From contig NC_049994.1 in assembly GCF_000003815.2 (NCBI RefSeq), positions 5,194,257-5,258,256 on the forward strand: a stretch of DNA of 64,000 bases, given 5' to 3'. Below are positions 13,000 through 64,000 of this stretch, in pieces (within the stretch, counting starts at the first letter, position 1; every line of letters starts with the position of its first letter). The notes under the pieces were generated by a model. It was not told the origin of the DNA and did not search any database. It saw only the letters and a list, made by a program, of their open reading frames with translations. The position numbers and the translations under genes are program-made. Source of the DNA: Branchiostoma floridae. Its lineage: Eukaryota; Chordata; Leptocardii; Amphioxiformes; Branchiostomatidae.

Positions 13000-14923
13000 A
13001 TGTCCACGACAGAAAAGTCCACAAATGGCCAACATGTTGACAGAACAACAGGACCTGGTAACTCTGCGAAGGATGGTGGTCCAAGTACAGAAGTCCCGCC
13101 ACCACAAGGAAAACAAGAGACGGAACGGGAATGTACTGGTAACGATTTTATAGAAAGTTTTATTGCACATTCTTGCCCGTTGGCAGGTAACGTGAAAGGG
13201 GTACAAACAGTGTAAAAACAATATTAGCAAGTGTCTACTCTAGTCTAAAAGCTAACTCTAGATTCTTGGTCATTCGGTTCTACTTTTTCCGAAGCCAGAG
13301 GAAAAAGAAAGATCCCACATTTTTATTATGTGTAGGTTTTGTGATGTTACATGTATATTTATATAGGAGTTATATTGTTTTCTTTTTGTCAGTTAACGTG
13401 GAGTAATTTGGGTAGAGTTTGGCGGCCTATTCAAACAGCTCATATTTCCAATTCGTGATCGTAGAGAGAAGAATTTAAAATAAAATGTGTTTTATTCTTC
13501 CACCATTTTTGACGTGCATTGTTTGCAAGTTCTTTCACACACAGGTAGCTTGTTGCATCGCTCTTTCTCCATTTCAATAGAGTGGGCACTAATTCGAATT
13601 TTGCTGGTTGCCGAGCGTAGATCAAAATTATCTAGATCTACTTCTAAGTATTTTTCCATAGTATGTGCGGTTTTGCAGGTCTTATAAAACCTAAGCTTAC
13701 CGGCATCAATACTCAAGTTATGACTAAAAGTTCAAATATTATACATAGAGATTCTAAATCTTATCATGGTACATATGGAATTGTTATCACTAAATGAATA
13801 GAACAGGTATGGATGACCACTACAATCTAATTTTTCCTAAATCCTTCACTTTATAGGATCTTCAACAAGCCGCCGGAAGACCGTTCTGTTCAACTACGTT
13901 CCAAGACACCACAGTCCCGGCAAGAGCACGGAAGACGCCCGATGTCTTCTGCGACAGAAAGAAGAACCGTCTAACGTCTGTAAAGTGTCGGCAAGTAGTG
14001 TTGTTGAGAAGACGACAGTCACTACAGAATGTTTGCTCCAAGGAGTACACCCAGAGCGTCCTGAAGTAGGGGTGCCGGTTGAAAAATCGTCTGATTGTGA
14101 CCAAAAACGTCTCAAAAAAGGCGGGAAAGAACTGGAGATGCCAAGCGTGAGTACCAGTGATGATCATGACAGAAACGAGGCTAGGGGCGTGTTCCCTCTG
14201 GACGCTCTCTCCCTATTGGCCGATGTGGGCGTTTCTATGCGGAAAATTCCACGTGCCGGTTGCCATGGCAACATACCCTGTTCCGTATCAGACGACACTG
14301 GAGTCATCGAGACATTCGTGAAGACGACTGAAGAAGGGCGGGATCAGGATAAGTACGTTATCAGTAGCAAACACGGTGTTTCTAAGACAGCAATTGCAAC
14401 AGGCATTCAAGTGTCTCACTGTACACGAAATGCAACACAAGATACAAGAGATTACGCGTACACGGACTCTAAGAGATACTATCAACAACAGCTTACAAGG
14501 CTTTCAACACCGACGTCCAACCCGCCAAACCCAACCTTCCTGATCCAGCCTCAGCCGAGGACAATAACGACCTTGTCTCAACGAAAGGAGAGTGACAAAA
14601 AGCAAGGAACATCAGCAAAACGCAAAGGTCTTTCCTACCAACAGTCAACCACGGCAGGTAAAAAACAAAAGACGGCAGCAACGAGCAAGACCACAACAAA
14701 AGAGGAGGCACAAAATGTTGTAAACAAGGCTTGCCCTGTTGTAAGCACTGAGAGAGTTGAAACAAAGGCTGGGGTTGTTGATAGCCCTCAAGTTAGCGAA
14801 ACCAGGCCGGCCAATGATCGTCACAGGATGGTTATTATTCTCTATACTCCTCAAAGTCGCTCTGAAGCTCCCACTGTCACGACGACCCAGCAGGTACAAG
14901 ACGAAGATTTACAGCTAGACTGA
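13000..14923 (+). CDS. Hypothetical protein of about 401 aa, function unknown
   Basis: The last exon, 13857-14923, is well supported: 355 open codons after a tttatag acceptor, ending in a stop after LQLD. It is richer in GC and CpG than its surroundings. The protein is hydrophilic and low in complexity, with K/T/Q/S-rich tracts (KGLSYQQSTTAGKKQKTAAT) and proline-rich TSNPPNPTFLIQPQPRT; FNYVPRHH lies near the exon start. No domain was recognised; nuclear-protein-like basic patches are only suggestive. An upstream exon 13000-13138 (start MSTTEKSTNGQH, donor GTAACG) joins in the right phase, but another frame is also open there and more exons may exist. The gene faces the NHL gene tail to tail. 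Confidence 0.5.
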
Positions 14924-24900: not shown

Positions 24901-25239
24901 ACTGCAGTAGAATGTATGTGTGTTTGTAAAAAAACAATACCCGGGGTCAGATGGGATGGATAAATGGAATTTTCAACTACTACAAACACACGTTTATGCA
25001 GTCATTTGCTTTTGGGGTAGGTGCTCTTTAGTACTACATGAATGAGACCAAGGAGTGTGTTTTTAACCTCCTTGATGAGACCTAATAGTCTTGAACAAAG
25101 GCATGATTATTTGGCAAAGAGATGTGTTCGTGGAACTCTAGTTGGAAAATTATTCTTGGCATGTTTGGTATGTTTTGGTAGGGTTTACGTTTGAGTGCCC
25201 ACCGGCGGAGTAATACCGGAACGAGACCTTAATCTTCAT
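21961..25239. other. Non-coding stretch with faint repeat echoes
   Basis: Contains two further decayed units (near 22850-22975 and 23020-23120, both with ttggtaggtgtgtagc/ttgtaggtgtgtagc and taccta(t/c)ggt blocks) and two ttttgggcc(c/t)cctggc.gcttg echoes near 23218 and 23350. The rest is unique-looking AT-rich DNA. No upstream epoxide hydrolase exons were found here although the next feature would need them. Confidence 0.4.
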
Positions 25240-25326
25240 CTTCTGTTCTCCTCCCCAGGATACCTTGACCAATATTCTGTTCTCCTCCCCAGGATACCTT
25301 GACCGATATTCTGTTCTCCTCCCCAG
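25240..25326 (+). repeat. Three tandem 3' splice-site-like units
   Basis: The sequence ttctgttctcctccccagga occurs three times with AG at 25257-25258, 25291-25292 and 25325-25326, a 34-bp period. The third copy is the acceptor of the exon at 25327. Confidence 0.9.
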
Positions 25327-25993
25327 GATGAGTTGCTGACCAGTGTGATGATATACTGGGTAACAGGAACCATCCCTTCATCCATGAGGTTCTACAAGGA
25401 GGCGTTTGCTGGAAAAGCACTCGTGGCCATCGGGTGCGTACAATGTACCCATCATTTTGAGTGGACAAGGAAGTTATAGGATAATTGCTTCCTAAAAACT
25501 CCTTTCAGTAGGGTGATTATCTAATAATGCACTTTCTATACCAACTGTTAAGACCTTAAGGCTATAAGAGAGTGAGTTATTGTTTTTTGCTTTTCTGAGT
25601 GTGTGTGTGTGTGTTTATGCGTGTCTGTGTGTGTTTCTGTAATTCCCCACATGTCGAATGGGAACCAAAAAAAAAAAAAAGAAAAATGAAGTAAGAACCA
25701 AGAAAATAAATTTGTTTGGAATTGGATCAATGAAGAATTTTCTCCTCCATGTTTTCTCCAGGCTACCAGTGACAGTACCATCAGGTGTGGTAGCATTTCC
25801 TCATGAGATCATTAGCCACGTGCCTGAGTCCTTTTGCTACTGGGGCTACCCTAATCTGGTCCACTACACCACCATGCCCACCGGCGGGCATTTCCCGGCC
25901 TTCGAACAGCCTGCTTTACTAGCGGAGGATATCCGAGCATTTGCAAGGAAAGTAGAGGCTCTGGATACTCCCAAAGAAAAGACACCCCAGTAG
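25327..25993 (+). pseudogene. Orphan last two exons of an epoxide hydrolase gene
   Basis: Two exons, 25327-25433 and 25762-25993, copy the last two exons of the gene at 29545-36753 (35973-36079 and 36525-36753). They keep the reading frame, the splice borders (donor GTGCGT, acceptor tctccag), the acid residue context FPHE, the catalytic histidine in GGHFPAFE and the stop; the second exon is one codon longer (HEIISH for YELSH). No exons for the N-terminal cap, HGWP motif or nucleophile are present in the preceding 5 kb. It is probably a partial segmental duplication without function. An alternative is the 3' end of a real paralogue whose other exons were lost in assembly. The flanking DNA is duplicated too (25994-26700 resembles 36754-37630). 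Confidence 0.75.
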
Positions 25994-26700
25994 TGTTATT
26001 CTAATACAACTCAATATTTTAATACAACTCAATATGAGCAAGGAGGTTAAACAAAACTCCTTGATATGAGATTTACTTCTGGACGTTTAAAGTGACATCC
26101 ATCATTCTTCTTCAACGCCGCTAGAAATAATTGCCAGAACAATTCAACACAAGTATGGCTAACCAGAAAAATTGCTTGAACATGTCAATTCACTAATTCC
26201 TAAGGATTGTATGCAAATGTCACTCAAATATAAATCATGTTTGGATAGTTCGCTATGGTAAGACAATACCATAGGAAAAGTTATCGTCCTTTGTGATGCA
26301 AAATGGAGAGGCATGTAAAGGAGAGTAGTGTTGATTCCAGTATATGAGTAATTTATGTGAAGTATGCACAATAATTAAAAGTCTTACAGATTAACATATG
26401 GTAAGTGTAAAGCTGTATAGACCAATCCAGACTGTCCAATCACAATTAGCAGTTCACCCAATGACAGTACAGCAATTAGGGATTTGACCAATGAGAGAGT
26501 AGCTGCAAATATCTGCATTTTATGGCTTTAATGGACACCCTATATTTTTATTTAAGGAAGTGGCCTTATGGGATCAGTCTATTGCATAGAGTACCTGGGA
26601 TACTGTAGTGCAGCACTTGATCAAGTATATTTGAAAGTGTATACTTAGAAGATCTAGAAGTGTACACACAGTGTACACACAGTTAGTATACACTGCTTAT
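25994..26700 (+). repeat. 3' flank duplicated with 36754-37630
   Basis: Collinear with the DNA after the functional epoxide hydrolase stop codon: gtgtt.tt.taatacaactca, gagcaaggaggttaaacaa, gagatttacttctggacgtt, ttgcttgaacatgtcaattc, ggcatgta.aggagagtagtg and a pair of accaatga-containing blocks. Marks the extent of the segmental duplication. Confidence 0.85.
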
Positions 26701-35500: not shown

Positions 35501-36753
35501 CAAAGGAAAATAAATGAGCTATTTGAAGAATCTTCCCCAGATATTACCGCAGTATTCGTTTCAACCTCTAAGTTGTCATCTTTTTTTAGACTCCTTCCCT
35601 ATCCCAGGATACCTCGAGCAACTGTTCTCGTTTCCAGTGTTACCTTTATCTGTATGTTCTCCTTCCCATGATATTCTGATCATTATTTCTTTCTTACAAC
35701 CTTAGTGTAAACTTTATATGTGAGTTTTCCTCCCCATGATATTCTGATCAATATTTAGTTCTTCTTCCCAGTGGAAACTTCATCTGGGAGTTTTCTTCTC
35801 ATGATGTTCTGATCAATATGTAGTTCCCCTTCCTGGTATAAACTTTATCTGCATGTCTGTTCTCCATCCCAGGATACCCTGAGCTATATTCCCTTCTCCT
35901 TCCCAGTGTAGCCTCCATCTGTGTGTTCTCTTTCCCAGAATACCTTGATCACTATTTTGCTCTCCTCCCCAGGATGAGTTGCTGACCAGTGTGATGATGT
36001 ACTGGGTAACAGGAACCATCCCTTCATCCATGAGGTTCTACAAGGAGACGTTTGCTGGAAAAGCACTCGTGACCATCGGGTATGTACAATGTACAGAGGA
36101 TCATTTTGAGTGGAAAAGGACATTATATGGTACAAATGCTTTCTCAAAAATTAACCTCCTTGGAATACGGTGCTATTCCACCCTAACCCTATCCCTAAAC
36201 CTAACCCCTAAACCTAACCCTAACCCAACCTTAACCCAAACCTAAATCTAAACCTAACCCTAAACCTAACCCCTACCCTAACTCTAACCAGAACATCGAT
36301 GTGTCAAAACTTTGGGCTAGCAGAACATAGGGGTGTCTGAAGTTAGCTAGGGCCCCACAAAATATCTCATTCAACCTTAAATACACGTCATGTCCCCCCC
36401 CCCTAAAAAACAGAAAATGAAGTACATGTAGTAAATGTATAATAAGAACCAAGAGCTAAATTTGATCATTTGATCATTTTGATCACCCTTAAATCAATCA
36501 TTTTCTCCTCCATTTGTTCTCCAGGCATCCAGTGACAGTACCGTCAGGTGTGGCAGCATTTCCATACGAGTTGTCCCACGTACCTGAATCTTGGTGCCCC
36601 TGGAGCTACGCTAACCTGGTCCACTACACCACTATGTCCACCGGCGGGCATTTCCCGGCCTTCGAACAGCCTGCTTTACTAGCGGAGGATATCCGAGCGT
36701 TCGCAAGGAAAGTAGAGGCTCTGGATACTCCCAAAGAAAAGACACCCCAGTAG
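29545..36753 (+). CDS. EPHX1: Microsomal-type epoxide hydrolase (EPHX1 family)
   Basis: Hydrolyses epoxides to diols at the endoplasmic reticulum membrane. Seven coding exons in phase: 29545-30151, 31755-31884, 33159-33282, 33871-33955, 35232-35353, 35973-36079, 36525-36753; 467 residues against 455 in human EPHX1. Residues 5-22 form the N-terminal signal anchor; the EHN domain follows; HGWPGS is at 153-158. The nucleophile is Asp231 in GGDWGS, the acid Glu407 in FPYE, and the base His434 in GGHFPAFE. Tyrosines in ESGYFHLQ and RFYKE correspond to the oxyanion-hole pair (human Tyr299 and Tyr374). All catalytic parts are present, so it should be active. The acceptor just before the ATG implies a non-coding first exon. 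Intron 1 contains an assembly gap. The C-terminal end, TPKEKTPQ, extends beyond the mammalian protein. A juvenile-hormone-type hydrolase name is possible for the same family. Confidence 0.95.
30202..30739. other. Assembly gap (538 N)
   Basis: Run of N in the first coding intron of the epoxide hydrolase gene. Open frames drawn through it are meaningless. Confidence 1.
30926..30960 (+). ncRNA. Hammerhead-ribozyme-like motif, copy B
   Basis: ctgagga, a, stem ggaagat/gtcttcc (one wobble pair) with loop ggac, then gaaacgtc. The stem sequence differs from copies A and C while pairing is kept. Located in epoxide hydrolase intron 1. Confidence 0.35.
31170..31504. mobile_element. MITE with cagggctcgaaa ends
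   Basis: Left end cagggctcgaaa and right end tttcaagccctg are inverted copies, with ctgcatacctgcac and cctgcatatgcagg just inside. The 335-bp element is flanked by ttcat on both sides (31165-31169, 31505-31509). It lies in epoxide hydrolase intron 1. Confidence 0.75.
31954..31988 (-). ncRNA. Hammerhead-ribozyme-like motif, copy C
   Basis: On the minus strand: ctgatga, a, stem ggtg-cc/gg-a-cacc with one bulge, then gaaacgtt. It has the consensus CUGAUGA form of the core. Located in the second coding intron of the epoxide hydrolase gene. Confidence 0.35.
34295..34708 (-). pseudogene. LINE reverse-transcriptase 3' fragment
   Basis: The minus strand between 34690 and 34488 encodes a typical end of a non-LTR retrotransposon polymerase (YRLPNARNNSGRTFNYRSVK then LWNLLPRDF, ending at a stop after NFYGS). 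An aataaa-type tail lies further along at about 34309. It is truncated and interrupted on its 5' side by the MITE at 34709. Lies in the fourth coding intron of the epoxide hydrolase gene. Confidence 0.75.
34709..34911. mobile_element. MITE with tactgtaaatgca ends, copy 1
   Basis: Ends tactgtaaatgca and tgcagttacagta are inverted copies. The interior alternates cgcggt, accgcgaa and aaattaaa(a/t)cc blocks. A copy of nearly the same length is at 40165-40369, and a decayed piece at about 10869-10985. It is inserted next to the LINE fragment. Confidence 0.85.
35598..35972 (+). repeat. Tandem array of 3' splice-site-like sequence
   Basis: About six degenerate units of roughly 60 bp, each with two polypyrimidine-CAG-like segments (ttctccttcccag followed by gataccctga, and ttctccttcccag followed by tgtaaactttatctg). 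Some have decayed to ccatgatattctgatca. The last segment is the true acceptor of epoxide hydrolase exon 6 (AG at 35971-35972). Confidence 0.8.
36180..36293 (+). repeat. Interstitial telomere-like repeat
   Basis: Degenerate run of ccctaa, ccctaaa and cctaacc units over about 110 bp in the last intron of the epoxide hydrolase gene. The equivalent intron of the orphan copy (25434-25761) has no such run. Confidence 0.85.
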
Positions 36754-37630
36754 TGTTGTTTTAATACAACTCAATATGAGCAAGGAGGTTAAACAAGACT
36801 ATGAGATTTACTTCTGGACGTTTCAAGTGATACCCATCACTCTTCTTCAGCATCACAATTCAACACAAGTACAGCTAACTAGAAAATTGCTTGAACATGT
36901 CAATTCACTAACTCCTAAGGATCGTATGCAAAATTCACTCAAATGTAAATCATGTTTGCATAGTTCGCTATGGTAAGACAATACCATAGGAAAAGTTAAT
37001 GTCCTTTGTGATGCTAAGTGGAGAGGCATGTACTGGAGAGTAGTGTTGGTTCCAGTATATGAGTAATTTATGTGAAGTGTGCACAATAATTAAAGGTGTT
37101 ACAGATTAACATATGGTAAGTGTAAAGCTGTATAGACCAATCCCGACTGTCCATCATAATTAGAAGTTCAACCAATGAGATCATGGCAATTAGAGATTTG
37201 ACCAATGAGAGAGTAGCTGCAAATATCTGGCCTTTTTTACATGACAGGCACAATTATTCTGCAGTATTTTCAAGTTAGAGGGGCAAAACTACAACTGAAG
37301 ATGGCCTACCTATACTAGAGCACTAACTATCATAAATGCTTTCAATCATGGCCAGGCTAGCTTCATTTTGGTGCAATGACCAGGAATTGCCCCAGGAAAT
37401 CCAAAATGGCCGCCGTAACTGGAATCAAGCATATTGTCATGTGAGTTGATCGTAATTGGGTCTCAATCCAATCAAATAGTCTTGAACTAAGGTTTTGTCA
37501 GTTGATCTCTCTGTAACTTTTGAAGTGTATAGACTGTAGTACAATTGACCAAGTATGTTTGAAACTGTAAATTTTGAACATCTAGATGTGTATAGCTAAT
37601 ATACAATCTAGTACATAATCATCTATTCCA
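36754..37630 (+). repeat. 3' flank duplicated with 25994-26700
   Basis: Partner of the duplicated flank of the orphan exons. Here the copy includes two accaatgag blocks at about 37173 and 37200. The epoxide hydrolase 3' UTR is probably in its first part. Confidence 0.8.
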
Positions 37631-37660: not shown

Positions 37661-37960
37661 ATGATTATATTTGTGACTATATTTAACACATTCTCAACTA
37701 AAACGAGAAATTCTCCATACAATATCTGCAGATTGCTGTCACCTATCTGCAGACTGCATATACCTATCTGCACACTGCAGTCACCTATCTGCACATTGCA
37801 GTCACCTATCTGCACATTGCAGTCACCTATCTGCACATTGCAGTCACCTATCTGCAGGTGCAGATAGGTATCTGCAGATAGCAGATACTTCACTGCAGAC
37901 TGCAGTCACCTATCTGCACACTACAGTAAATGTGTGAAGACTGCATACACCTATCTGTAG
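37661..37960 (-). repeat. 21-bp minisatellite block, copy 1 (inverted relative to 48800-49080)
   Basis: Units of cacctatctgcacattgcagt recur every 21 bp between about 37755 and 37855, followed by a fold-back into gcagataggtatctgcagat. The flank aacgagaaattctccatac is the reverse complement of that at 49036-49055. Confidence 0.85.
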
Positions 37961-37982
37961 ACTATATGGATATAGTCTGTAT

Positions 37983-38415
37983 TAGGGCTGGGTATCGGTA
38001 CAGCGTACCAGTACAAAATCGTTTTTTCTTATTGGACCGGTCCAGAAAAAACGGACCTGAAAAAATTAGGTGAACTGGATGTTGGACCGATTAGAAAATT
38101 AACAGATTATTTTATCAGGCATTCACACGCTTTGGCGCTTGCAGGTGGAAGAAAATAACAAGAGTGAAGTACAGTAGAGTTTATAGTAATTTCTACCAAG
38201 TTTTGCAGCCAATCGTACAGGTGCAGTTAGCGTTGTAGGATTTTAAAACGCCAGTGTGAGTTTTATACTCTACTAAACAGATTTCTTTTGAGTGAAATGG
38301 ACCATTGGTATGAGTCATACTGAATCAGGTCCAGGTTCAGGTCTGGACCTGGACCTGATCCTCTGGACCTGAACCAGACCTGGACCTGAATTTTCTGTAC
38401 CGGTACCCACCCCTA
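37983..38415. mobile_element. hAT-like MITE with 8-bp target duplication
   Basis: The 433-bp element begins tagggctgggtatcggtac; its inverted right end reads taggggtgggtaccggtac. It is flanked by the perfect 8-bp direct repeat gtctgtat at 37975-37982 and 38416-38423. Eight-bp duplications are typical of the hAT superfamily. The interior contains repeated ggacctg blocks. Confidence 0.9.
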
Positions 38416-48600: not shown

Positions 48601-48799
48601 CACTTTGGCTGCTTGTCAGTAACTGTAATTAGAAGTCAGGTATGACAGATCTGATGCAGGTTAACAGGGCTCTATGTTCTCTTATTTTCGTAAGTAAACA
48701 TTAACTTGACAATTTAACATACTACTTTTGATGTACATATACAGCCTACAGACTGAACTGATTACATTCACCTGTGTGTATGGAGATTGCAGAAATCTG

Positions 48800-49058
48800 A
48801 TATGTAACTGCAATCTACAGATAAGTGTATGCAGTCTTATAAATTTACTGTGGTGTGCAGATAGGTGACTGTAGTCTGCAGTCAGGTATCTGCTATCTGC
48901 AGATACCTATCTGCACCTGCAGATAGGTGACTGCAATGTGCAGATAGGTGACTGCAGTGTGCAGATAGGTGACTGCAGTGTGCAGATAGGTATATGCAGT
49001 CTGCAGATAGGTGACAGCAATCTGCAGATATCGTATGGAGAATTTCTCGTTTTAGTTG
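48800..49058 (+). repeat. 21-bp minisatellite block, copy 2
   Basis: Repeats of gcagataggtgactgcagtgt with 21-bp spacing at about 48918-48995, flanked by gtatggagaatttctcgttt. It is the inverted counterpart of 37661-37960. Confidence 0.85.
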
Positions 49059-49059
49059 A

Positions 49060-49282
49060 GAATGTGTTATTTGTAAATTTTGCTCTTTTTATTAAGGTTA
49101 TGTTGCTTTGGTGGAGGCCACTAATTAGCATACATACTTCTCCAGTCAAGGGTCACATATGTTACAGAATGGAAAGAATTCTATTGTGTTGTGTCAAATT
49201 TTCCAACGGTGTGATTGGATAAAGGAATAAAACTGATTTAATATAAAAAGAATTTGACGTTTTGTAATTATTATTTCCTTAA
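49060..49282 (+). repeat. Dispersed repeat (pair with 26770-27050)
   Basis: Collinear with 26770-27050 (see there). Directly follows the 21-bp minisatellite. Confidence 0.8.
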
Positions 49283-49296
49283 CCTGTATATTTATG

Positions 49297-49534
49297 CCCG
49301 TTTTGGGCCCAAAATGGCATTTTTGCAAAGGCGCGGACATGCGGAAAGTTTTCGGGGTCCAAAAATGGAATTTCCCCAGACCGGCCGAGATGGCCCGTTT
49401 TGGGCCCAAAATGGCATTTTTGCAAAGGCGCGGACCTGCGGAAAGTTTTCGGGGTCCAAAAATGGAATTTCCCCAGACCGGCCGAGATGGCCCGTTTTGG
49501 GCCCAAAATGGCATTTTTGCAAAGGCACGGATCT
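49297..49534 (+). repeat. 97-bp tandem repeat, about 2.4 copies
   Basis: Units start cccgttttgggcccaaaatg at 49297, 49394 and 49491. The copies are almost identical, so the array is recent. Because 97 is not a multiple of 3 and few stops occur, several frames stay open on both strands; none is a credible gene. Confidence 0.95.
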
Positions 49535-49559
49535 GTAGATAGTCTTTTTTTGAGAAAGA

Positions 49560-49946: not shown

Positions 49947-50304
49947 TAATGAATATCATTGCCACACTAAGGAGATTTAGCAGCTGCATTAGGTCAGTAC
50001 ATTGAAATAGGAAGATATCAGTACTGAATAAATCATACGTGACAGAATAACTACAAGGGCCATCTGAGACAAAAAAAGGTAGGAAAAGTCGTCTCAACAA
50101 CTTCAAGGTACTGTGGTTGGTTACATGCTTAAGAAATCCAAAATAAGTAATGTTCATCCATGCCCAAACTTACACACTCCGAAAATGGAATTTTAGACTT
50201 TTGCATGGTGCACAACCAACACGGTAAAAAAACACTTTTCCAACCACGCAACCACGGACAAAAGGAAAAAAATACACAATATGTCTACAGACACCCAATA
50301 CATT

Positions 50305-50712
50305 TCATTTCATTTCCTTTATTGATTCACAACATAACAGACATACACATTGTGGTAGCCTGAATGGCGTTGGAATGTACAACAAACATATGGCCTGATC
50401 CGTCCGCATATATACATAAGAACAATATAAAATTACACAAAAAAATATACAACTCTAACAATTGAGTGCCATCATTACCACCATCATTACAAGCTAAGTG
50501 TCTATAGTCTTATTGTACAACTTGATGGCTTTGTGCAGGAAGGAGTTCTGGAGTCTTTTAGTTCTAGCTGGGGGGATGGAGATAGTGTTTTTGTTTCTTA
50601 GTGATCGTCCCGTAGCAGTTGATCTGGAAGCTGGGACCAGGTCATGTAGTGGATGCTCAGCATCCAACATTTGTCTGAATAGTTTGACAGCTGCATCCTC
50701 GCGTCGCGACAC
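50305..50712 (-). pseudogene. LINE reverse-transcriptase 3' fragment
   Basis: The minus strand from 50712 to 50494 encodes the end of a non-LTR polymerase (EHPLHDLVP, TGRSLRNKNTISIPPARTKR, NSFLHKAIKLYNK, stop). A tail with aataaa on the minus strand lies at about 50318-50325. Heavily 5' truncated. Confidence 0.75.
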
Positions 50713-50865
50713 AGGATTTCATGCAGGCCTGAGGTCTACGAACTCTTGTCGTTTCTGTGTTGATCTCCAGAGTCCTCTCCCGAAAGTCCACCCCTATGGT
50801 GGCCTCTGTTTTATCAAGAAACTTCCCACCACAGGCAAATATACAAAAGTAACGGTCTCCTCTGT

Positions 50866-51094
50866 CAGCACTGGAACACCAGTGCTGAAGTGGTCGTCAG
50901 CACTGGAAGTCCAGTGCTGAGCCGGCGTCAGCACTGGAAATCCAGTGCCGAGGCAGCTTCAGCACTCGAAGCCCTCCTGTCAGCACTGGAAACCGAGTGC
51001 TGAGACTACAATCAGCACTGGATTTCCAGTGCTGAGGACATTTCAGCTCTGGAAATCCAGTGCTGACAAATATTCTACACTGGAAACCGAGTAT
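50866..51094. repeat. Regularly spaced array of short palindromes
   Basis: Near-perfect 22-bp palindromes (cagcactgga, two bases, tccagtgctg) start at 50866, 50898, 50929, 50981, 51013 and 51044, with a half copy at 50960 and a decayed one at about 51076. Spacing is 31-32 bp apart from the half copy. Spacers of about 9-10 bp differ from each other. Confidence 0.9.
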
Positions 51095-51165
51095 AAAATG
51101 TATAAAGTTGGTGAAAAGAACTTACATTCTGTAACAAAATATAAATGGACAACTGTATTATACAA

Positions 51166-51590
51166 TGTTTTTTAAATGATGCTTCTTTGCCGCACAAGCC
51201 GGAATGTGTCGTCCACCTGTAACTACCTATTCTTTGTAAAAAAAAAAACAAGCAATCTCTTTACCACACAGATAGACCAACTGTTAGTTGTCTAACTCTG
51301 ACTACCTATTGTTTTTTAAATGATGCTACTTTGCCGCACAAGCAGAATGTGTCGTCCACCTGTAACTACCTATTCTTTGTAAAAAAACAAACAAGCGATC
51401 TCTTTACCACACAGATAGACCAACTGTTAGTTGTCTAACTCTGACTACCTATTGTTTTTTAAATGATGTTACTTTGCCGCACAAGCAGAATGTGTCGTCC
51501 ACCTGTAACTACCTATTCTTTGTAAAAAAAACAAGCGATCTCTTTACCACACAGATAGACCAACTGTTAGTTGTCTACCTCTGACTAAAA
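51166..51590 (+). repeat. 143-bp tandem repeat, three copies
   Basis: Copies start tgttttttaaatgatg at 51166, 51310 and 51453, each containing tttgccgcacaagc, tgtcgtccacctgtaactac and cacacagatagaccaactgt. Near identical, hence recent. Confidence 0.95.
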
Positions 51591-51849
51591 AGACACTACT
51601 TTGCCACAAGTATAGAATATGTGATTTGTTGATTTAAAATTTTCGTATCAATTGACCAAAAGAAAAGAAACTTGAGTGCCATTAACTGTATACACAATTA
51701 ACAATATCACAAGTGTCTACTCTAGTCTAAAGCTAGTGCCACGCAAGATCTGCTTGGAGATTAAATAACACACATAGATATACCTAAGTCTAAAGGAAAT
51801 AACTGAGATAGCCGTACGGACGCATGCTACTAGTACACGATATTACGTT

Positions 51850-51932
51850 CAGCACTGGAACGTTCCAGTGCTTTATAAACGTCAGCACTGGAAGCCCAGA
51901 GCTGAAGTTTTTACAGCACTGGTCTTCCATTG
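51850..51932. repeat. Second stretch of the palindrome array
   Basis: Further copies at 51850-51872, 51883-51904 and a half copy at about 51913, again about 31-33 bp apart. The array appears interrupted by the sequence between 51095 and 51849. Confidence 0.85.
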
Positions 51933-51943
51933 AATAATTCATT

Positions 51944-52034
51944 ACACTCACTCACTCACTCACTCACTCACTCACTTACTCACTCACTCGATCACTCACT
52001 CAATCACTCATTCATTCACTCAATCAATCACTCA
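51944..52034 (+). repeat. (CACT)n microsatellite
   Basis: Imperfect tetranucleotide run cactcactcactcact drifting into caatcactcattc, immediately before the retrotransposon. Confidence 0.95.
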
Positions 52035-52048
52035 GAGAGAGAGCCGGG

Positions 52049-54060
52049 ATGGAAGATGAACCTGTTGGGACAGATAGAATGGAAACGACCAGGGTCCGAA
52101 GCGGCCTCCAAACGGCAATCGACAAGAGAAAAGTGGTGATGAGGACTTGCAGCTGCGGATGGAAGAAAGACACCACCTATAGGGGCCTGCGTATTCACCA
52201 GGGGAAAACGAACTGCCAGGGTAAGAGGCAACACACCCGCACAGTGTCAACTGGTCAGACGGAAGAGGACATGGGGCAGGTGTCTACCCACAGAACCCAA
52301 GACCTCACCAGTGAAGCACCAAGCCAGGGCAGTAGTAGTACCCCCCTGGCGTCTGCAGATGAAGTTAGAGAGCGGACAGTGCCGGAACCTAGAGTAGAGC
52401 CAGTCTCACAGCAGGAAGTAGTAGCAGGGACAACTCCCTGTCCACAAGAACCAGCTCCAGAGAGGAGAGAGAAGATTAAGTGGCCAGAGCGAATAACAAA
52501 GAATGGGAGAAGTTAGATTACGATTTACATCAGATCCTCGAGCAGGGGCTGAAAGGCGACGTAGATAGGAAACTTAACCAGTTCGACAATTTAGTGTACA
52601 GCTACTGCAGCGAAAGGTTCGGCACATAGAAGAAGGCGGGAAAAGAGGCCCGTGAAAAGCAGACGAGTCGCAGAGAGAGAGAGATTGCAACATTGGTCCG
52701 CAGACGTCGCCAGTTGAGGAAGAGATGGCGAAAAGCAAAGCAAGAAGAGAAGGAAGGTCTAGAGACGTTATGGGAAGAAATCAAATCGAAGTTGAAAAGC
52801 CTTAGGAGAGCCGAGAGACTAGGAAGAAAGCGGAAAAGGAAAGCCAAAGAGAGAAACCAATTCTTCAAAAACCCATACAAGTTTGCCAGAAACTTGCTTG
52901 AGGAAAAGAAAGGATCGAGGCTCTCTTCAGATTTCTAGGGAAGATTTGGAGTTGCATCTCAAACAAACGTACAGCGATCCCCAGAGAGATTAAGAGTTGG
53001 GGTCCCCAGGGTATGTGCCCAGACCAACTGAACCCGAAACACCATTTGATGTATCCCTCTCCAGGTGGAGTGAGTTGGAGACAGCTATCAAGAAAGCGAG
53101 GGCTGGTTCAGCACCAGGACCAAACGGTGTGTCCTATCAGATATACAAGAAGTGTCCAAAGATTGGGAGACTGCTCTGGAAGCTATTTAGAGTTGCGTGG
53201 AAGAAACAGTTTATCCCCTAGTGCTTGGAGAAGAGCAGGAGGAGTACTAATCCCGAAAGAGAAAGTTTCCACAGACATCAAGCAGTTCCGAAATATATCA
53301 CTTTTGAATGTAGAGGGAAAGCTGTTTTTCTCCATCTTAACAAAGCGGATGATAACCTACCTGCTCGCCAACAGTTAACAGTTACATTGACACTGAAGTC
53401 CAGAAGGCAGGGGTGCCAGGCTTCCCTGGATGTATTGAACACGCAAGCACGATATGGCAACAGATTCAGATGGCAAGACGCCAAAAGGAGGACCTGCACG
53501 TAGTGTGGTTAGATCTCACCAATGCATATGGGGCAGTACCGCACAGCGTAATCCACTAGGCACTGAACTTCTTCTGGGTGCCAGAGACCATTAGAACCAT
53601 GATTCAGAACTACTTCCAGGACTTCAGAGTTAGTGTAACCACACCACAGTTCACTACAGGATGGCAACAGTTGGAAAAGGGAATAGCAATGGGGTTGCAC
53701 CATCTCACCTCTCCTTTTTGTTCTGGGTTTTGAAATATTCCTCATAGGTGCAAGAAAAGTCACGTGGCAGGTGGAATAAAACTGCCTTCAGGACAAAGAC
53801 TTCCGCCACTCAGGGCTTTCGTGGACGATGTGACCAGCATTCTCAGGAGTGCCCCGTGTACCAGACGGGTGCTGCAGAGGTTAGAAGAGTTAATAGAGTG
53901 GGCGCAGATGCGATTTAAGCCCAGCAAATCCAGAAGTCTGTCATTAAGGAAAGGGAAAATCAGCAGCAGAGTTTTCTCAATAAATAACCAAGACATTCCC
54001 ACAATCCAACAGGAACCTGTAAAAAGCCTGGGACGGCTTTACACATATGCATGTGACTAT
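52049..54060 (+). pseudogene. Decayed non-LTR retrotransposon with zinc-knuckle and reverse transcriptase
   Basis: The first open frame (52049-52516) carries a zinc-finger-like CSCGWKKDTTYRGLRIHQ, then C, typical of the head of one LINE polymerase family. Later pieces lie in different frames: a basic region LRRAERLGRKRKRKAKER (about 52800), SAPGPNGVSYQIYKKCPK (about 53110), ISLLNVEGKLFFSI (about 53300), VWLDLTNAYGAVPHS (about 53510) and the catalytic box in RAFVDDVTSI (about 53815). At least three frameshifts and several stops (for example at 52514-52516, 52936-52938 and 53219-53221) break it, and similarity ends near 54045, so it is 3' truncated. It cannot make an active enzyme. Confidence 0.9.
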
Positions 54061-54635
54061 AAATGTAATCTGCTACTGAACCATGGACTTATTTGAAGGG
54101 GGTTGAATCGCACAAAGTATGAAACAAACAGTTATCGCAAAAGCACACCAATATTAAAGAGAAACACTACTACACTAGTCAATAATTGTTGATTTCGAAG
54201 ACTTTTTTTCACAGATGACAAACAAACTAACAAACCTATTTCGACAAGACCTTAACCCGACGCTTCGACACTATTTTCTCTGTTATGAAAAGGAAATGAC
54301 GCATACCTGTTTCAGGTTGGTCACCAAGGACGGACTGTACCATGGGGGTAAATATTACATAAATCACGTTTGAAAGCCCAGAGACGTAATTTATGACATC
54401 ACGGGATTCACCCCCCCCCCTCAACCTTTAATTTGTTTTGCAATCAATCTTGCAGTCATTGACGAGATTATTTATAGGGGTTGTACATTATACATATGGG
54501 ATACACAATGTGGAAGAATGTTTGTAGCAATCAACAAGTAGCCAATGTTGCCTTGTATTGTCGAAGTCGCACACCATACGTATGGGGGGTGTACAAAAAC
54601 TACATTGCACTTTTTCTTGGTCAAATGATTAAAAA
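54061..54635. other. Non-coding stretch after the retrotransposon
   Basis: No gene or clear repeat recognised. A run of cccccccccc-like sequence lies near 54410. Confidence 0.4.
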
Positions 54636-57600
54636 AACTAGAGTTCGGGGACCTCATACCTCCATGAAATATTTATTGCTTTTTTGTGGATGGTATGTAT
54701 GTTTATAGTTGGTTGTATTTGAGAATAAAAGTTATATATGTTATGGGAAAGAAGTGGTGTAATTATTTAAATATCGCAAACGGGAACAAAATATAGGTGC
54801 GAATACCACAGACAGTAACCACTCATTTTCCAAGACAGGCATTATGTTCTACATACTGGGTAAAATCGCAACTGTATGCTTTGTCATAATATGACAATTA
54901 TGACAAATTCAATAATGAAATACAAGAAATACAATACAGGATACAAACACATCATCAACACAACCAAAAGGACATGAAATATCCGACAACCAATACCTAC
55001 ATGTAGGATACGGGGACAAGTTGATGCCCGATATATAATAATGCAAGTACTTACCAACACAACATCAGCATAAGCCACGCGGAGCACAAAATCTAACAGC
55101 GCAAACGAGGTATAACACACCAGGTCCCCAAAGGCACAAGTGGCTAAATACAAAGTTATTTATCATATTCAAATTGCCCAGCATCGGGAAACAGTTGCTT
55201 TAAGGAGTTAAATGTTACATTACCCTAACCAGTTGCTATACGCAACAACTTTTCAGATAAGGGATTACCTAACACATCCACATATTAGATATGTAATACA
55301 TCCAATTACATACTAACGAAACGTCCGCGTAACGCAAGGCGCACACAAAACATCTAACAACACAAACGAAATATAACATACTGTGTCCCCAAACGCACAA
55401 GTACATACATGCAATTTATTATCACAATCAAAATTGTCCGCCTCCCAAAACAGATGTTCTAAAATGTTGGGCTGGGCAAACAGCGGGTCTAATGTGCCAA
55501 CTGTTACAAATATTTCAAACAGTCCTAAGCAGACATAAATAAAACTACTGGGGGTTCCCCAAACAGCTGTCATAGAAATCACCTCACTATCTGCTTGCAG
55601 CTAAGCCCATTAACAAACACATAAAGCACGATGCTTGTTCCAATATATCTCAAATATAGGGGTGATTTCTGATATTATTACATCAATTATAACGACAGAT
55701 ACGGCTCCCAAAATCTTATCGATTCGAGCTTTCATCACACCCCACCAACACAACAAGTATGAAACCAATCCATCCAGCCGTTCTTGAGTAATCTTGTACA
55801 CAGAGACACATAACACACCCCATCAACACAACAAGTATGAAACTAATCCACCCAGCCGTTTTTGAGTAATCTTGTACACAGACAGCCAAAACTCGGGATT
55901 CCCCAAACAGCTGTCATAGAAATGACCTCACTATCTGCTTGGAGCTAAGCCCATTAACAAACACTTAAAGCACGATGCCTGTTCCAGTATATTACAATTA
56001 TAGGGGTGATTTCTGATACGTGCATCGTTTCACGACTGTGTACAGGCACACCAAACCGTATGCGAATATCGCAAACGGGACGTCAACTATAGTTGCGATA
56101 ATCACAGACAGTAACGACTCATTTTCCAGGACAAGCAATATGTCATACATATTAGGTAAAACCGCAACTGTATGCTTTGTCATAATATCACATACGAGAA
56201 AACCAAGGGACCAACGTGCATCGTAGGACGACTGTGAACACCGGGCACACCAAACCATATATCAATATCGCAAACGGGAACAAAATATAGGTGCGAAAAC
56301 CACAGACAGTAACCACTCATTTTCCAACACAGGCATTATGTTCTACATACTGGGATAAATCGCAACTGTATGATTTGTCATAATATGACATATGACAAAA
56401 ACACTACTGACATACAAGAAATACAATACAGGATACAAACACATCATCAACACAACCAAAAGGACATGAAATATCCGACAACCATGTAGGATACGGGGAC
56501 AAGTTGATGCCCGATATATAATAATGCAAGTACTTACCAACACACAATCAGCATAAGCCACACGGACCACAAAATCTAACAGCGCAAACAAAGTATAACA
56601 CACCAGGTCCCCAAAGGCACAAGTGGCTAAATACAAAGTTATTTATCATATTCAAATTGTCCAGCATCGGGAAACAGTTGCCCAGCATCGGGAAACAGTT
56701 GCCCAGCATACTAACGAAACTTCCGGGTTACGCAGCCAAAAACAGATGTTCTGATCTTGATCTTGATTGGGTACTGGACAACGCCCCTCAGTTGGGGCAA
56801 AGCGTCCAGGGGGAGTGCTGCGCCTTAATGTTCCCTGAGGCGTTGGAGAACTGCCTCCTTGAACTTTGGAGCGTCTGTGATCTCCGTGACCTCGTACGGT
56901 AGAGAGTTCCAATCTCTCACGGTTTGTGGGAAGAAGGAATGTTTGTAGCAGTCTTTGTGAAAAGGTAGAGCCTTGTAAGAATTTGGGTTTGAGTGTCGCG
57001 ATTGGCGCGGTACAGGCTTTAGATGAGTTTCGACCGGTAGGGCTACTTTATGGTGTCTTGCTTTCTGTAAAATCGTTAATCTATTTGCTGTCCTTCTGTT
57101 GCGTAAGGTGTCCCACCCCAAATCAGAGACAAGTTTGGTGACACTATCATAACTATGATACGAATTTGTGACAAATCTGGCCGCTCTTTTTTGAACGGAC
57201 TCTAACTTAGCAATGTGCTCTTTGTGGTATGGATCCCAGGCAGCGCTGGAATACTCTAAATGCGGTCTAACAAGGGATGTATATGCATTTGTTTTGACTG
57301 ATTTGGGGCAGTTATAAAGATTGCGTCTCACAAAGCCTAACGTCTTGTTAGCCTTGGAAGCACTGTACTGTATGTGTTGTGACCAAGAGAGCTGGTTGTT
57401 GACTTGATCTAGAATGTTGGGATGGGCAAACAGCGGGTCTAATGTGCCAACTGTTACAAATATTTGAAACGGTCCTAAGCAGACATAAATAAAACTAATG
57501 GGGGTTCCCCATACAGCTGTCATAGAAATCACCTCACCATCTGCTTGCAGCTAAGCCCATTAACAAACACATAAAGCACGATGCCTGTACCAATATATCT

Positions 57601-61340: not shown

Positions 61341-61383
61341 TTCAAAAATACCGCCGGGTCAGAGGTCAAATCTGACCGGAGCC

Positions 61384-64000
61384 TTACGCGTGCATATACG
61401 CCTGAGATTCCGCAATCTTAAAAGTTATTCGGGAGGGTCGAACTTGGTATCGTTGGAAGGGTCCCTTGGTAGGGAATTATAACCCACAAACCGCAAAATT
61501 ATATTGTACATTGTTGCCGAGATATTCTCGGAGATAGGTCCACTTTAGCTTACCGCTACATGTACGTAACCCTTACGCGTGCATATACGCCTGAGATTCC
61601 GCAATCTTAAAAGTTATTCGGGAGGGTCGAACTTGGTATCGTTGGAAAGGTCCCTTGGTAGGGAATTATAACCCACAAACCGCAAAATTATATTGTACAT
61701 TGTTGCCGAGATATTCTCGGAGATAGGTCCACTTTAGCTTACCGCTACGTAACCCTTACGCGTGCATATACGCCTGAGATTCCGCAATCTTAAAAGTTAT
61801 TCGGGAGGGTCGAACTTGGTATCGTTGGAAAGGTCCCTTGGTAGGGAATTATAACCCACAAACCGCAAAATTATATTGTACATTGTTGCCGAGATATTCT
61901 CGGAGATAGGTCCACTTTAGCTTACCGCTACATGTACGTAACCCTTACGCGTGCATATACGCCTGAGATTCCGCAATCTTAAAAGTTATTCGGGAGGGTC
62001 GAACTTGGTATCGTTGGAAAGGTCCCTTGGTAGGGAATTATAACCCACAAACCGCAAAATTATATTGTACATTGTTGCCGAGATATTCTCGGAGATAGGT
62101 CCACTTTAGCTTACCGCTACGTAACCCTTACGCGTGCATATACGCCTGAGATTCCGCAATCATAAAAGTTATTCGGGAGGGTCGAACTTGGTATCGTTGG
62201 AAAGGTCCCTTGGTAGGGAATTATAACCCACAAACCGCAAAATGATATTGTACATTGTTGCCGAGATATTCTCGGAGATAGGTCCACTTTAGGTTACCGC
62301 TACGTAACCCTTACGCGTGCATATACGCCTGAGATTCCGCAATCTTAAAAGTTATTCGGGAGGGTCGAACTTGGTATCGTTGGAAAGGTCCCTTGGTAGG
62401 GAATTATAACCCACAAACCGCAAAATAACATTGTACATTGTTGCCGAGATATTCTCGGAGATAGGTCCACTTTAGCTTACCGCTACGTAACCCTTACGCG
62501 TGCATATACGCCTGAGATTCCGCAATCTTAAAAGTTATTCGGGAGGGTCGAACTTGGTATCGTTGGAAAGGTCCCTTGGTAGGGAATTATAAGCCACAAA
62601 CCGCAAAATTATATTGTACATTGTTGCCGAGATATTCTCGGAGATAGGTCCACTTTAGCTTACCGCTACGTAACCCTTACGCGTGCATATACGCCTGAGA
62701 TTCCGCAATCTTAAAAGTTATTCGGGAGGGTCGAACTTGGTATCGTTGGAAAGGTCCCTTGGTAGGGAATTATAACCCACAAACCGCAAAATTATATTGT
62801 ACATTGTTGCCGAGATATTCTCGGAGATAGGTCCACTTTAGCTTACCGCTACGTAACCCTTACGCGTGCATATACGCCTGAGATTCCGCAATCTTAAAAG
62901 TTATTCGGGAGGGTCGAACTTGGTATCGTTGGAAAGGTCCCTTGGTAGGGAATTATAACCCACAAACCGCAAAATTATATTGTACATTGTTGCCGAGATA
63001 TTCTCGGAGATAGGTCCACTTTAGCTTACCGCTACGTAACCCTTACGCGTGCATATACGCCTGAGATTCCGCAATCTTAAAAGTTATTCGGGAGGGTCGA
63101 ACTTGGTATCGTTGGAAAGGTCCCTTGGTAGGGAATTATAACCCACAAACCGCAAAATTATATTGTACATTGTTGCCGAGATATTCTCGGAGATAGGTCC
63201 ACTTTAGCTTACCGCTACGTAACCCTTACGCGTGCATATACGCCTGAGATTCCGCAATCTTAAAAGTTATTCGGGAGGGTCGAACTTGGTATCGTTGGAA
63301 AGGTCCCTTGGTAGGGAATTATAATCCACAAACCGCAAAATTATATTGTACATTGTTGCCGAGATATTCTCGGAGATAGGTCCAATTTAGCTTACCGCTA
63401 CGTAACCCTTACGCGTGCATATACGCCTGAGATTCCGCAATCTTAAAGGTTATTCGGGAGGGTCGAACTTGGTATCGTTGGAAAGGTACCTTGGTAGGGA
63501 ATTATAACCCACAAACCGCAAAATTATATTGTACATTGTTGCCGAGATATTCTCGGAGATAGGTCCACTTTAGCTTACCGCTACGTAACCCTTACGCGTG
63601 CATATACGCCTGAGATTCCGCAATCATAAAAGTTATTCGGGAGGGTCGAACTTGGTATCGTTGGAAAGGTCCCTTGGTAGGGAATTATAACCCACAAACC
63701 GCAAAATTATATTGTACATTGTTGCCGAGATACTCTCGGAGATAGGTCCACTTTAGCTTACCGCTACGTAACCCTTACGCGTGCATATACGCCTGAGATT
63801 CCGCAATCTTAAAAGTTATTCGGGAGGGTCGAACTTGGTATCGTTGGAAAGGTCCCTTGGTAGGGAATTATAACCCACAAACCGCAAAATTATATTGTAC
63901 ATTGTTGCCGAGATATTCTCGGAGATAGGTCCACTTTAGCTAACCGCTACGTAACCCTTACGCGTGCATATACGCCTAAGATTCCGCAATCTAAAAGTAT
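61384..64000 (+). repeat. 183-bp satellite array (14 units plus a partial one)
   Basis: Units beginning ttacgcgtgcatatacgcc start at 61384, 61573, 61756, 61945, 62128, 62311, 62494, 62677, 62860, 63043, 63226, 63409, 63592, 63775 and 63958. The period is 183 bp, or 189 bp where catgta is inserted (first and third units). Units differ by only a few bases. Each contains tatcgttggaaaggtccc and the small inverted repeat cgaga-tat-tctcg. The array continues past the window end. Confidence 0.98.

Follow-up and report, generated by a model that had tools for sequence, protein, structure and literature searches.

The window analysed here is a 64,000-nucleotide stretch of the Branchiostoma floridae genome, in which two clusters of short palindromes (array I, eight units; array II, three units) lie among tandem repeats, a Rab33-like coding fragment, and broken open reading frames (ORFs) that may derive from a reverse transcriptase (RT). 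The features at the locus are as follows.

50738..50833, minus strand: Rab33-like coding fragment adjoining array I (PDB chain search)
50865..50888, no strand: u1, 24-bp palindrome with 10 of 11 arm pairs (pattern scan and alignment)
50897..50920, no strand: u2, complete palindrome
50928..50951, no strand: u3, palindrome with one right-arm change
50959..50970, no strand: u4, reduced to a left half-site with one mismatch, its right half missing; 21 bp to the next unit
50980..51003, no strand: u5, palindrome with two right-arm changes
51012..51035, no strand: u6, complete palindrome
51043..51066, no strand: u7, palindrome with one left-arm change
51074..51097, no strand: u8, decayed, in register
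51166..51587, no strand: three 143-bp tandem repeats (96% matches) between the arrays (Tandem Repeats Finder)
51849..51874, no strand: IIa, palindrome with a 4-bp centre
51882..51905, no strand: IIb, dyad 32 bp after that of IIa
51913..51936, no strand: IIc, decayed, with two left-arm and four right-arm mismatches; dyad 31 bp after that of IIb
51945..52034, no strand: (CACT)n microsatellite between array II and the ORF (Tandem Repeats Finder)
52049..54093, plus strand: broken ORF pieces, read as a putative RT relic (ORFs, Pfam, and protein search)

The Rab33-like fragment matched Rab-33B best among PDB chains (E = 4.3e-7), with a Pfam Ras match below cut-off (E = 0.16). Because a search of the window for other Rab33 exons with a Rab33B query gave a next match of only E = 3.3 among the matches listed, it looks like an isolated fragment. 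The assignment of the broken ORFs downstream to an RT relic is weak: pieces matched RVT_1 below the Pfam cut-off (E = 0.23 and 0.052) and an R2 retrotransposon protein at E = 0.057, two further searches with pieces of this type returned nothing relevant, and the first ORF, zinc-finger-like by eye, contained no zinc finger by Pfam. Minus-strand open frames at 50494-50715 and 56825-57547, which we took to be the tails of LINE reverse transcriptases, had no reverse transcriptase match in Pfam. Three of the ten larger ORFs had Pfam matches above cut-off (TMEM101, NHL-type repeats, and epoxide hydrolase). Across the whole window, Rfam gave no match at gathering score and ARAGORN no tRNA gene; a bacterial-type promoter scan found 4 promoters, with 2.7 expected.

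Other repeats in the window include a 183-bp satellite reaching the window end (61382-63998; 14.2 copies, 98% matches), a 97-bp tandem repeat (49296-49535; 2.5 copies, 97% matches), and a palindrome-rich 21-bp minisatellite (21 bp being two helical turns) at 37684-37963 and, in opposite orientation, at 48799-49069, the two copies being 89% alike over 278 bp that include some flank. A dispersed repeat links 25729-26515 with 36492-37229 (787 aligned columns, 85% identical), and a second repeat common to these regions lies nearby (25238-25498 and 35886-36149). A 38-bp stretch at 13217-13254 is 92% alike to 51700-51735, with flanks unlike by eye.

Palindromes in array I had been placed by the preliminary description at 50866, 50898, 50929, 50981, 51013, and 51044, and each was recovered with at most two mismatches to CAGCACTGGA-NN-TCCAGTGCTG (chance expectation for array I palindromes, mean 0.00 over 100 shuffles). 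They had also been called perfect, which does not hold: only two of the six match these arms exactly, all ten arm pairs being intact at 50898 and 51013, nine of ten at 50866, 50929, and 51044, and eight of ten at 50981. The left half-site at 50960 is present with one mismatch, and the decayed unit reported near 51076 corresponds to u8. Several features had been overlooked. The true palindrome is 24 bp long, TCAGCACTGGA-NN-TCCAGTGCTGA, its outer T and A being retained in all eight units aligned (8 of 11; u4, IIa, and IIc left out), and u4 has lost about 10 bp along with its right arm.

Also overlooked was the second cluster, array II, whose three units occupy 51849-51936, about 750 bp past array I. 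The centre of IIa is 2 bp wider, yet its dyad is still 32 bp from that of IIb. The 12-bp half-site, with at most two mismatches, occurs in 25 stretches of the window, of which 16 lie in the two arrays and nine are scattered elsewhere in the window without forming an array; five shuffles preserving base composition only gave 0 to 6 stretches. Under the same kind of shuffling (five shuffles), the window held 111 near-palindromes against 39 to 51. Near-palindromes form clusters of at least four at only two places in the window, one of four at 38282-38348 and one of seven dyads at array I (one of the seven lying between units), the largest cluster in the five shuffles having two or three. Exact pattern scans of virus contigs (two patterns) and prokaryote contigs (one pattern), collections that hold no animal genomes and say little on animal repeats, returned no match, and a literature search with the 10-base half-site string gave, among the matches listed, none apparently about repeats. 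The arrays are known from this single locus, a point against the preferred explanation given below, and from it we infer their function.

Among six array I units (u4, u8, and array II left out), pairwise identity was 88.6% for sites and 25.6% for spacers, against a random-letter null at window composition of 25.9% (sd 4.4); eight spacers, including two from array II and leaving out that of u4, gave 26.0%. The 2-bp centres vary, as do the spacers. Site and spacer boundaries were drawn after the conserved columns had been viewed, which makes the permutation P value of the split partly circular, and we therefore rely more on the spacers being no more alike than random letters. Earlier it had been proposed that half-sites and pitch are maintained and spacers are not, and that spacers as conserved as the palindromes would speak against this; the proposal held in the tests run, with spacer letters at random level beside sites that are kept.

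These values bear on one alternative, an ordinary minisatellite of about 31 bp after neutral decay. Tandem Repeats Finder does report two period-31 arrays (83% and 73% matches). In an ordinary minisatellite the whole unit, spacer included, would be similarly conserved, which is not what was found, and uniform decay, simulated 16,000 times (eight divergence levels of 2,000 each; star-like uniform substitution without indels), never reproduced both the site and the spacer identity. We consider this alternative very unlikely. On present evidence the arrays are real, non-random, and other than an ordinary minisatellite. A coding repeat was ruled out on sequence, as the 31-32 bp pitch shifts the reading frame.

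Centre-to-centre distances are 32, 31, 31, 21, 32, 31, and 31 bp in array I and 32 and 31 bp in array II. The fixed pitch of 31-32 bp first described is therefore kept in eight of nine within-array intervals, the ninth being 21 bp because u4 lost about one helical turn; this loss is a single case and proves nothing. Every within-array interval lies no more than 0.5 bp from a multiple of 10.5, and the dyads of the eight array I units are in phase (R = 0.967 at 10.5 bp per turn, with a nominal dyad for u4, whose right half is lost), in agreement with the earlier suggestion that all sites face the same side of the DNA. The value depends on the helical repeat assumed (0.97 at 10.4-10.5, 0.57 at 10.2, and 0.0 at 10.0). 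Phasing between the arrays is poorer: they are 776 bp apart, 1.0 bp off phase, and R falls to 0.888 over all 11 units. We attach no probability to the phasing, because the intervals are non-independent if the array grew through duplication, and growth of this kind could yield an even pitch without selection. Spacers measure 7-8 bp in eight of nine cases and about 9 bp after the broken u4 (bounds approximate). Since their length is even although their letters are random, spacer length would appear to be under constraint.

The arms do not decay equally, a feature that the preliminary description had also overlooked. Left arms carry 5 mismatches and right arms 18, of 110 positions each (Fisher P = 0.007; u4 left out), and among the eight better units (u4, u8, and IIc dropped as decayed) the counts are 1 and 8, of 88 each (P = 0.034). 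Such an excess in the right arms is not expected if constraint is strictly symmetric, and it is the chief result opposing a dimer-site reading. The preliminary description had favoured an operator array for a dimeric protein or an array able to extrude cruciforms. Of these the operator array is the better supported, as half-sites kept, spacers free, and phase constant are what such an array would display and what was found here; a plain symmetric operator fits less well, the right arms being less kept.

Cruciform extrusion fits the data less well. Two arms of the same unit show 82.7% identity, little more than arms taken from different units (80.4%; permutation P = 0.18, u4 left out), and across 8 of the 11 units 87.5% of cells are paired and 11 of 88 are uncompensated. 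The arms thus share a common consensus, and there is no clear sign that one arm of a unit is corrected against the other. Both values also weigh against a related explanation, in which the arrays would be a palindromic minisatellite that no protein binds, its arms protected or corrected by hairpins at replication while single-stranded loops and spacers mutate fast. Several observations do suit this process: the centres and the spacers are both variable, the window has two copies of a further minisatellite rich in palindromes, the 21-bp one described above, two changes are two-sided (both in the decayed u8, a count reached by 20 of 500 shuffles), and the folded single strand is far more stable than shuffles (z = -10.7), as must be expected of any array like this. 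Protection of arms alone, in turn, would probably not hold spacers at 7-8 bp while their letters are random. Upkeep of the arms by hairpins is possible and not favoured, and we regard the palindromic minisatellite without a bound protein as rather doubtful.

Our preferred explanation, to which we give about an even chance, is that the locus holds two clusters (eight and three) of putative dimer-binding sites that are likely the cis-element of a dead mobile element, now decaying. Each site would consist of two 11-bp half-sites in inverted orientation, to be occupied by a dimeric DNA-binding protein, and the spacing of three helical turns would put neighbouring dimers on the same face of the helix, touching or bridged, so that several dimers could bind cooperatively side by side. 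Both clusters would belong to a subterminal or 5' regulatory cis-element and would now be decaying. A mobile element is the likely owner because apparent mobile-element debris surrounds the arrays, among weak RT matches, tandem repeats, and an isolated gene fragment.

Within this preferred explanation, the owner could equally be the downstream RT element, with the arrays as its 5' regulatory region. Some LINEs carry promoter monomers, and array II ends 113 bp upstream of the ORF start. The (CACT)n tract between array and ORF could, however, be the point at which the element was inserted. The 5' end of the element would have to be drawn from one copy, and its identity is tentative, the matches being weak. 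Taken by itself, this sub-case, in which the arrays would be the 5' promoter or regulatory region of an RT element with its first ORF from 52049, seems unlikely.

A different kind of cis-element may also be considered. Tyrosine-recombinase crossover sites have fixed arms and a fixed spacer length, with free spacer letters. The 7-8 bp spacers between inverted 11-bp arms could in that case make the arrays a collection of recombinase sites whose spacers are incompatible with one another, carried by an animal mobile element; we find this most improbable, and no recombinase appeared among the Pfam matches of the 20 ORFs submitted.

If binding to the putative dimer sites were demonstrated, the locus would be a natural example, in an animal genome, of an array of phased sites for several dimers, and its spacers would provide an internal neutral clock to set beside the constrained sites. 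One could then ask which protein of host or element reads the array and whether the pitch itself is selected.

Four known systems resemble the arrays in part, as far as the passages cited describe them. Amphioxus "mirages", reported in lancelets, are minisatellite-like arrays that lie next to exons (PMC3087553), and array I likewise lies next to the Rab33-like coding fragment; mirages as described duplicate an exon-intron boundary. A self comparison of the window (E 1e-4), insensitive for units so short, linked no array unit to the Rab33-like fragment at 50738-50833. A mirage origin of the arrays is not supported and was weakly tested.

The family of repeats to which EBNA1 dimers bind in the plasmid origin of a herpesvirus (PMC5923364) shares with the arrays palindromic dimer sites in tandem about 30 bp apart. 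As described, it differs in its 18-bp site, 12-bp AT-rich spacer, and twenty units; we draw an analogy of layout and claim no relation. The left end of piggyBat has three imperfect palindromes bound by transposase dimer domains (PMC11707139), and resembles the arrays in having imperfect palindromes at a fixed pitch. The pitch given there is 44 bp, however, with an extra GCGGGA motif in each unit, and no piggyBac family match was found among the Pfam matches of the 20 ORFs.

The nearest layout found, within the passages cited, is that of soybean CACTA (En/Spm) Tgmt*, whose subterminal repeats can form 12 palindromes at one end and 2 at the other and are proposed sites for an element-encoded DNA-binding protein (PMC2613891). 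Common to both are a short motif repeated in direct and inverted orientation, many short palindromes, and unequal ends (12 and 2 in Tgmt*, 8 and 3 here); the motif is another one, and Tgmt* is a plant element with wider spacing (24 repeats in 732 bp). The two palindrome clusters at the present locus would correspond to subterminal repeats only if they lay near both ends of an element, in both orientations. No CACT[AG], the start of a CACTA-type end (CACTA or CACTG), occurs in 50301-50870. Inverted ends of 14 bp with at most two mismatches (starts in 50300-50869, ends in 51925-52699) gave two pairs without a target duplication, one of them consisting of array units; three shuffles yielded 1, 2, and 0 pairs. 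A CACTA terminal inverted repeat was thus not found within the ranges tried, and we do not assign the arrays to CACTA because inverted ends were not above shuffles. Among the Pfam matches of 20 ORF translations there was no TNP2-type transposase; short CACTA elements often lack a transposase. If owned by a mobile element, the two arrays would provide an animal case of palindromic control-region arrays, beside those described for plant CACTA and bat piggyBac-type elements in the passages cited.
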